A stretch of 64,000 bases of DNA from Cerasicoccus sp. TK19100 (GTDB taxonomy: Bacteria > Verrucomicrobiota > Verrucomicrobiia > Opitutales > Cerasicoccaceae). Positions 2,804-4,630 of the stretch are shown piece after piece; within the stretch, counting starts at the first letter, position 1; every line of letters begins with the position of its first letter. Position numbers and translations under genes: made by a program. The notes beneath the pieces are model-generated. The model was given only the letters and a program-made list of their open reading frames with translations. It was not told the origin of the DNA and did not search any database. The DNA lies in the NCBI RefSeq assembly GCF_027257155.1, contig NZ_JAPWDU010000010.1:1-64000 (forward strand). Direction: 5' to 3'.

Positions 2804-3226
2804 ATGAGTGATGTCGATCCCAATGCGAAGCTCATCCTGATCGCCGACGATGATCAGGCAACACGCACCTTTCTCAATGCAGCGGCGCGCAAGCTTGGGC
2901 ATCGCACCATCCAGGTCGACAACGGTAAAGACGCCTTCGACGAGGCGAAGAAAAACCGACCCGACCTGATCCTGCTCGACATCCTCATGCCCGATATCGA
3001 CGGCTACACCGACCTTCGCCTGCTCCGCCTCAACTGGCGCACGCGAGACATCCCTATCGTCGTCATCTCCGGCTATGCCGACCAGGCCGACGCCGATCGC
3101 TGCCTCACCGCCGGGGCAAATTTCTTCCTGCCCAAGCCGGCCACTGTCGCGCAGGTCCGCACCGTGATCAACAAGTTCCTGTCGCCCGCAAGCGCCCCCC
3201 ACGCCCCGAATCAGGCTGAGTCTTAG
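2804..3226 (+). CDS. Single-domain response regulator (receiver only)
   Basis: A CheY-like receiver domain fills almost the whole protein. The acidic pocket is DDD (15-17), the phospho-acceptor is Asp59 in LLDILMPD, the switch residue is Ser89 and the conserved lysine is Lys111 in LPKP. There is no output domain, so it probably acts by protein contact or in a phosphorelay; the nearest large kinase is 55 kb away at 58151. Its last 59 bases overlap the 3' end of the convergent HTH gene. The short tail (about 20 residues) is Pro/Ala rich. Confidence 0.92.
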   Translation: MSDVDPNAKLILIADDDQATRTFLNAAARKLGHRTIQVDNGKDAFDEAKKNRPDLILLDILMPDIDGYTDLRLLRLNWRTRDIPIVVISGYADQADADRCLTAGANFFLPKPATVAQVRTVINKFLSPASAPHAPNQAES

Positions 3227-3566
3227 GGGCCACGAGCACACCCGCCTTCCGGAAAATCGCCTGAGATTCCGCCGTGCTGCGGTTGGTCAACAGTGCCACC
3301 AGCCGGTCCGCAAAATCCTCGGGCTCGTAGTTTGCCGTCTCCAACAGAAAGAGCAGCATCGTGTCACGGTGAAATTGATACGTGTAGCGGGTGCGCCCCT
3401 TCACGTAGCTGGTAAAACGGTGGCCCGGCAGGCGACCGCTCTCATAACAATCGCGGACAAACTGAGGCGTGCGCCCCAGCATGTCTGCGACTTCGCGCGT
3501 GGTAAACCATTTCTGCCCCTCGGGCAGCAGAACTTCAAAGTGAGTCGCGGCGGAAGATTTTTTCAT
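3168..3566 (-). CDS. Helix-turn-helix DNA-binding protein (excisionase/MerR-like fold)
   Basis: 132 residues from the ATG at 3566. A longer open frame reaches 3701 but its extra N-terminus is Cys/Thr-rich and not protein-like. Residues around 20-55 read KWFTTREVADMLGRTPQFVR and on through SGRLPGHRF, a winged-helix-turn-helix pattern of the excisionase/MerR kind, followed by a helical stretch FHRDTMLLFLLETANY. The 3' end overlaps the convergent receiver gene by 59 bp. It sits beside two ribbon-helix-helix genes, so this is a cluster of small DNA-binding proteins. Target and role are unknown. Confidence 0.75.
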   Translation of the reverse strand: MKKSSAATHFEVLLPEGQKWFTTREVADMLGRTPQFVRDCYESGRLPGHRFTSYVKGRTRYTYQFHRDTMLLFLLETANYEPEDFADRLVALLTNRSTAESQAIFRKAGVLVAPKTQPDSGRGGRLRATGTC

Positions 3567-3631: not shown

Positions 3632-3838
3632 CTAAGCTCTCCGCCGACTGTAGGGACGCTCCAGGCGCTCCAGCGTGGGCGACACATAGCCCTCCGCGCA
3701 TAGGTGGTCCTTGAGCAGTGATGCAATCAGGCCTGAAAGGGATCGCTGGTCCTCCGAAGCCGCTTGACGAGCCGCCAAATGAAGGCTCGGTGGCAGTGTG
3801 ATCGAAACATTGACAGTGCTTTTGTTCAGTGCTTTCAT
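3632..3838 (-). CDS. Ribbon-helix-helix protein (CopG/Arc type)
   Basis: 68 residues. The N-terminal half shows the RHH pattern: a beta strand VNVSITLPPSL followed by two helices (HLAARQAASEDQ and SLSGLIASLLKDHL). Such proteins dimerise and bind DNA with the strand, often repressing their own promoter, and many serve as antitoxins. No toxin follows directly. It is divergent from the RHH-nuclease gene, with an AT-rich shared upstream region at 3839-3985. Self-regulation is inference. Confidence 0.72.
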   Translation of the reverse strand: MKALNKSTVNVSITLPPSLHLAARQAASEDQRSLSGLIASLLKDHLCAEGYVSPTLERLERPYSRRRA

Positions 3839-3985
3839 AGTGAACGTATTCTCAGAAATTTATCCGCCTCAGGCAACACTAATTTACTATTTTTGTTTAT
3901 TTTATTATTGGCTATTATCCTGCCTTGAGTATCAAAGATTTACACAACGCAATTGATAAGCAGCCCTCAAAAACCGGAAAAAACC

Positions 3986-4630
3986 ATGCCCGCAGACGAT
4001 CAAAAGCACAAAACAGTCGGCGTTTCGTTCCACCCCGACCTCCGCGAACGCGCCAGCGAGCGTTCCCGCGCCCTGGGCCTCTCCTTCAGCCGCTACGTCA
4101 CGCTCTGCGTGGAAGCCGAGCTGAGCGGCCACCCCTCGCAGCTCCTTTCCCAGCCCGGCGTGCCCGCCCCAATGCCGCCCGCCACTGCTTCGGCCCGCGA
4201 CGAGGTTAATTTACAATCGGCCATCGACGCCGGCAGCGACTACTCCGCCGCCAAGGCCGCCTCCATCGACTTCGAGGACGACATCGAGGAAATTCTCCGC
4301 GCCGACGACATCTGCTACACGCGCTACTCCGCCATCGGCAACCTGCGCACAGACTTCCTGATCCAGCACGTCGACGAAAAGACCGACCGCACCGTCCGCA
4401 TCGCCCTGGAGTGCAAGCACAACCTCCGCGGCCGCTACACCGTCACCCTCGGCCAGGCGATCATCCTCAACAGCATGCCACAAATCGACGCCGTCGTCCT
4501 CTGCGTCCCCTACCTAAAGAACTTCGACGAACACGTCCGCGACACCTTCGCCCAGCAAAACATCCCCATCGCCATTCCCGACAACGTCGGCGCCGTCATC
4601 CGCGAAATCGCGGAAAAGACTGCGGGCTGA
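3986..4630 (+). CDS. RHH domain fused to a PD-(D/E)XK-like nuclease domain
   Basis: 214 residues from the ATG at 3986 (GGA about 9 bp upstream); a TTG at 3953 would add 11 residues. Residues 9-46 form a ribbon-helix-helix unit (VGVSFHPDLR, then helices through EAEL). A Pro/Ala-rich linker follows (50-72). The C-terminal domain shows the arrangement of the PD-(D/E)XK superfamily: acidic helix around E101/E102, D123 in LRTDFLI, E142-x-K144 in IALECKHN, and a following helix with Q157. This suggests a DNA-targeted nuclease, but activity is inferred. Divergent from a stand-alone RHH gene. Confidence 0.7.
   Translation: MPADDQKHKTVGVSFHPDLRERASERSRALGLSFSRYVTLCVEAELSGHPSQLLSQPGVPAPMPPATASARDEVNLQSAIDAGSDYSAAKAASIDFEDDIEEILRADDICYTRYSAIGNLRTDFLIQHVDEKTDRTVRIALECKHNLRGRYTVTLGQAIILNSMPQIDAVVLCVPYLKNFDEHVRDTFAQQNIPIAIPDNVGAVIREIAEKTAG

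Follow-up and report, generated by a model that had tools for sequence, protein, structure and literature searches.

RHH-REL, a 214-residue protein encoded in the 64,000-nucleotide stretch of Cerasicoccus DNA that we analysed (the window; order Opitutales), joins a ribbon-helix-helix (RHH) head to a C-terminal domain that resembles the PD-(D/E)XK nucleases. We view RHH-REL as a putative two-domain DNA-binding regulator, with the restriction endonuclease (REase)-fold part acting as a DNA-engaging or signal-input module, and give this view an even chance of being correct. Many anti-virus defence operons begin with the gene of a sister protein in which the same C-terminal domain carries an XRE head, and this suggests a regulator of a little-known type and not a plain DNA-cutting enzyme.

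The two domains of RHH-REL

The RHH-REL open reading frame begins with ATG, and its features and those of the adjoining genes are collected in the table. As a single query the protein gave no match in Pfam, NCBIfam or the PDB. The fusion of an RHH unit to a PD-(D/E)XK-like domain, proposed in the initial annotation, is nevertheless backed by predicted fold, residue conservation and weak sequence matches.

Features of the RHH-REL locus (positions in the window)
Feature	Positions	Strand	Basis or remark
HTH_17/excisionase-like (Phage_Cox-like) gene	3168..3566	-	third module member; HTH_17 E 3.4e-5; present in 77 of 273 genomes of this order
Solo RHH gene, divergent from RHH-REL	3632..3838	-	weak Pfam RHH_5/DUF6364; position kept in most related loci
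Operator-like site GTGAACGTATTCTCAG	3840..3855	.	abuts solo-RHH start codon
Conserved AT-rich promoter-like stretch between divergent genes	3883..3918	.	alignment of six intergenic regions
RHH-REL gene	3986..4630	+	RHH head and PD-(D/E)XK-like C-terminal domain; orthologue alignment, AlphaFold2, fold matches, dN/dS 0.03-0.19 in both domains
Probable RHH DNA-binding domain, residues 7-48	4004..4129	+	sequence pattern; weak NikA-like/CcdA/MazE6 matches; solo-RHH profile in register
PD-(D/E)XK-like domain, residues 73-205	4202..4600	+	AlphaFold2, foldseek, MTES_1575 in relatives, hhalign to XRE-fused family
Active-site motif D123, E142-C143-K144, N146, L155-G156-Q157	4352..4456	+	(nearly) invariant, residue 144 K or R; codons at 4352 (D123), 4409 (E142; E142-C143-K144 at 4409-4417), 4415 (K144) and 4454 (Q157, to 4456)

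The head follows a canonical strand-helix-helix pattern (KTVGVSF-PELRERA..RA..LGLSFS.YVTLCVEAEL). In the AlphaFold2 model it contains helices at residues 17-29 and 36-46, while the strand is absent from the monomer; the pLDDT of the head is low, which may reflect a strand that takes shape on dimerisation only. Matches of the heads to RHH families were weak (NikA-like, 0.0034; CcdA, 0.03; MazE6, 0.3; the NikA-like and CcdA matches being Pfam matches found in relatives), and the head reached no curated RHH family cut-off. Compared with the solo-RHH profile, with the C-terminal domain profile as negative control, it gave an in-register match (E 4e-4, probability 36). The assignment of residues ~7-48 as a probable RHH domain, drawn from sequence pattern and profile, is the weaker one.

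An alignment of 16 orthologues across Opitutales revealed that D123, F124, E142, C143, N146, L155, G156, Q157 and P175 of the C-terminal domain are invariant. D123, E142, K144 and Q157 are where the initial annotation had placed them, and conservation of the motif over these orthologues argues against a chance arrangement. When the two fusion types are taken together (22 domain sequences, reaching down to 23% identity), the aspartate is present in all 22 and the glutamate in 21, the remaining one having an aspartate, while position 144 is lysine in 14 and arginine in 8. The PD-(D/E)XK signature, an aspartate followed by (D/E)xK at strands 2 and 3, is accordingly found (D in 22/22, E or D in 22/22).

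AlphaFold2 placed helices at residues 96-106 and 147-162 and strands at 111-117, 120-129, 136-143 and 169-173, which is the alpha-beta-beta-beta-alpha-beta core of the PD-(D/E)XK fold; modelled alone, the domain had a mean pLDDT of 85.4 and a pTM of 0.77. The restriction-endonuclease-like folds that structure prediction had been expected to return were recovered in a foldseek comparison with the PDB, which was led by XisH (E 1.9e-4 and 7.8e-4, probability 1.0), followed by NucS, PspGI, BamHI, PaqCI, MspJI, Can2/Card1 and Hef; the single E-values are modest, yet the top of the list belongs mostly to one superfamily, PD-(D/E)XK. The DSSP strand limits (129 + 136 = 123 + 142 and, in domain numbering, 57 + 64 = 51 + 70) suggest a beta2/beta3 hairpin register that, in both models, would pair D123 opposite E142 and put K144 on the E142 face. 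The Pfam family REase_MTES_1575 was matched by 10 of the 22 domain members (best E 1.3e-5), with the scores shown lying under the family cut-off. Searches of PHROGs and PADLOC with the domain yielded scattered weak matches alone.

Among four Cerasicoccus species, pairwise dN/dS was ~0.03-0.12 for the RHH region and 0.10-0.19 for the C-terminal domain, indicating purifying selection on both. The linker between them (residues 51-72) is variable, with dN/dS of ~0.09-0.32 or saturated.

A conserved divergent module in a housekeeping setting

The divergent stand-alone RHH gene and the small HTH gene, here typed as HTH_17, that had been noted beside RHH-REL are real and conserved. Related loci in several families have RHH-REL divergent from an operon of solo RHH, in some cases a small extra gene (orf114), and HTH_17; orf114 is missing from Cerasicoccus, where it was either lost or never present. 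It was located at L038 5247-5591, L079 6806-7129 and L080 5240-5578, has no Pfam match and shares the pattern IDTG..L..G..W.A.AK..C. In the window, the convergent response-regulator gene (2804-3226) shares 59 bases (3168-3226) with the HTH_17 gene. Elsewhere in the same genome (contig C2; L104 2308-3041), a region that may be prophage-like holds two tandem HTH_17-like genes, of which one is a distant family match.

Within its own family, 9 of 10 genomes carry RHH-REL; elsewhere in Opitutales its distribution is patchy. Of three Cerasicoccus relatives inspected, each has panC and the response-regulator gene beside it and two also have orn/apt, while in a sister genus it lies near rlmN/cysS/thrS (gene names judged by eye from sequence). 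The setting is housekeeping and outside any defence island. No methyltransferase gene was seen beside RHH-REL in the loci inspected by eye, and no integrase-bearing element was noticed around the module in those loci. The RHH-type profile had no match in viral contigs or phages, and a plasmid search returned one weak match that covers part of the RHH only. These data lend no support to the role in defence or mobile-element control that had been suggested for RHH-REL itself.

The HTH_17 family is broader than RHH-REL, and many of the genomes that carry it are of 0.7-1.1 Mb. In such genomes it is kept without RHH-REL (L082-L101), often opposite an XRE-type gene and with a small coiled ORF between. 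Within the family of the window organism, Cerasicoccus has RHH-REL and no XRE gene, genome G117 has the XRE gene and no RHH-REL, and genus g2 has both. In G117 the HTH_17 gene is divergent from the XRE-type regulator, so the position of RHH-REL is there filled by a regulator.

In 11 of 12 loci, the sequence GTGAAC-N4-GNTCAC or a close variant is located at most ~12 nt from the solo-RHH start codon. Per locus, at most 4 of 2000 shuffles reached such a site, figures that are optimistic because these loci also served to define the motif. L081, a locus where we found no solo RHH gene, also lacks the site, which could belong to the solo RHH rather than to RHH-REL. The tandem and inverted repeats of the intergenic region are short and chance-like. 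The self-regulation suggested for the gene is plausible, as the promoter is divergent and the operator-like site conserved.

XRE-headed sisters at defence operons

The same C-terminal domain also occurs fused to a Cro/C1-type HTH (XRE) instead of the RHH head. An hhalign comparison of the RHH-type and XRE-fused domain families gave a probability of 99.5 over 134 columns, and the XRE-type profile retrieves the window gene at E 1e-15. In the tree, the RHH- and XRE-fused domains split on one branch (support 100/99) and the RHH side tracks taxonomy, which points to one head exchange followed by mainly vertical descent.

The genes beside the XRE-headed sisters were typed with PADLOC and Pfam. Of the 17 loci that could be evaluated, at least 10, as a raw count, adjoin defence or restriction-modification (RM) genes, mostly with the sister directly ahead. 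The neighbours are HmaA (L063), BrxF-BrxC/DUF6079 (L067 and L076), BrxA-BrxB-BrxC (L073), a type I methyltransferase with specificity subunit (L068), a type III methyltransferase (L070), an Eco57I-type methyltransferase some 660 bp on (L069), a Z1 helicase with a type III methyltransferase (L071), a DrmD-like helicase with HEC-06 (L077) and, on a viral contig, a type II methyltransferase with an XhoI REase (L102). Two further loci have likely defence neighbours (L075, a weak JetB; L105, DUF499/PglZ-like by eye), this typing found none at L064, L065, L066 and L072, and L074 is ambiguous. Many start and stop codons at these loci overlap. One sister (L071 5604-6299; also L026) has a degenerate XRE head and an aspartate for the glutamate of the ExK motif (VDCKYN).

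The XRE-headed sisters thus occupy, at the head of defence and RM operons, the place of a controller protein such as a C protein or BrxR. These XRE-HTH and REase-fold proteins of Opitutales and one viral contig apparently form an undescribed family of defence-operon regulators, and the defence reading fits them, most adjoining such operons.

Readings of RHH-REL and comparison with known systems

In the regulator reading, the RHH head, presumably as a dimer, would bind an operator in the divergent promoter common to RHH-REL and the solo-RHH/HTH_17 operon, and RHH-REL would thereby control its own module. The PD-(D/E)XK domain would most likely be the signal-input or DNA-engaging part and not a free restriction enzyme; it may bind DNA or DNA ends and possibly cut them, the metal-site aspartate and glutamate being kept by selection. 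Our data show the domain architecture, the predicted fold, the conserved motif, the conserved module and a domain in common with the XRE-headed proteins that lead defence operons; from these we infer dimeric DNA binding, a regulatory function, a role for the metal site and which of the RHH proteins uses the operator. The regulator is favoured because the sisters are operon leaders, the module is one of divergent regulators and no methyltransferase was seen beside it by eye; the conserved operator-like site, vertical inheritance in a housekeeping setting and the low dN/dS of both domains are consistent with it. What runs counter is that nearly every relative retains the aspartate and glutamate, more than a mere dimerisation scaffold would call for and exactly the pattern expected of an active nuclease; the weak sequence-level evidence for the RHH head and the possible tie of the operator-like site to the solo RHH also count against it. 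Conservation of the aspartate and glutamate implies that the metal site matters, and the domain may therefore sense or cut DNA.

It is possible, though we hold it doubtful, that RHH-REL is a self-regulated active nuclease whose RHH head targets DNA sites for metal-dependent nicking or cutting in repair, element control or defence. The (near) invariance of D123 and E142, a predicted hairpin register that would set one opposite the other, and fold neighbours that are mostly active nucleases all agree with this, as does the precedent of C protein-REase fusions, which both regulate and cut (PMC3850674). However, position 144 is arginine in 8 of the 22 sequences, no methyltransferase that could shield the host DNA against restriction was seen beside RHH-REL, the housekeeping locus is vertically inherited and the sister domains sit where controller proteins do. 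An unlikely third reading is a factor for element excision or chromosome structure of the XisH, Cox or CdbA type, which would act in a nucleoprotein complex with the HTH_17 protein and the solo RHH and not as a promoter regulator; the top PDB fold match is indeed an excision-controlling factor, the HTH_17 gene resembles Phage_Cox/excisionase and its family persists in genomes of 0.7-1.1 Mb, but XisH is matched at the level of fold alone (14-17% identity, nothing in Pfam) and no integrase-bearing element was noticed around the module. A toxin-antitoxin-like arrangement in which the solo RHH would be the antitoxin is very improbable despite the resemblance of RHH heads to the CcdA and MazE6 antitoxins, as the genes are divergent and not a co-transcribed pair, number three or four, are inherited vertically over a family and include no known toxin family.

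Comparison with described systems places the putative regulator RHH-REL near several of them. Like the C protein-REase fusion CR.NsoJS138I (PMC3850674), it carries an HTH-type regulator and a REase-fold domain in one chain, but its head is RHH and not XRE, it lacks a methyltransferase partner, no PvuII similarity was found and cutting is here putative; the adjacent methyltransferase typical of C proteins is absent beside RHH-REL, by eye, and present at several XRE-headed sisters. The BrxR/CapW WYL regulators (PMC9122601, PMC9122589, PMC9122588) are, like the XRE-headed sisters, encoded at the start of defence operons of various types (BREX, RM and others), whereas in our proteins the REase-fold domain replaces WYL (no Pfam WYL match) and RHH-REL lies outside defence loci. 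Co-localisation with defence genes was reported for 48% of BrxR homologues and is therefore not obligatory. XisH (2inb, 2okf), the closest solved fold, is a single-domain REase-fold protein tied to the control of DNA excision; its solved chains have 128-129 residues and no DNA-binding head, and RHH-REL has no XisH Pfam match at E<=10. REase_MTES_1575 (PF18741) is the sole Pfam REase family that many relatives reach, and the window protein has no match to it. The RM-proximal repressor RptR (PMC12255303) is likewise a small regulator linked to restriction systems, but it forms homodimers, each monomer being small and made up of four alpha helices, and no REase-like domain is described for it. 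None of the C protein-REase fusions, BrxR/CapW and RptR has the combination seen here, and we found no published account of XRE- or RHH-headed REase-fold regulators in the open-access PMC literature.

More broadly, and tentatively, Opitutales may possess a regulator class with exchangeable XRE and RHH heads and a catalytically competent REase-fold sensor, in which the XRE form would control many kinds of defence operon through its sensing or cleavage of foreign DNA, whereas the form with an RHH head would be a domesticated core regulator. How defence operons are switched on is poorly known; WYL proteins, C proteins and RptR make up most of the dedicated regulators described. In the little-studied order Opitutales, RHH-REL belongs to a defined, conserved module of three to four genes for small DNA-binding proteins, and the sharing of a REase-fold domain between proteins that lead defence operons and an RHH protein of the core genome makes it possible to test directly for a nuclease fold acting as transcription-factor sensor.
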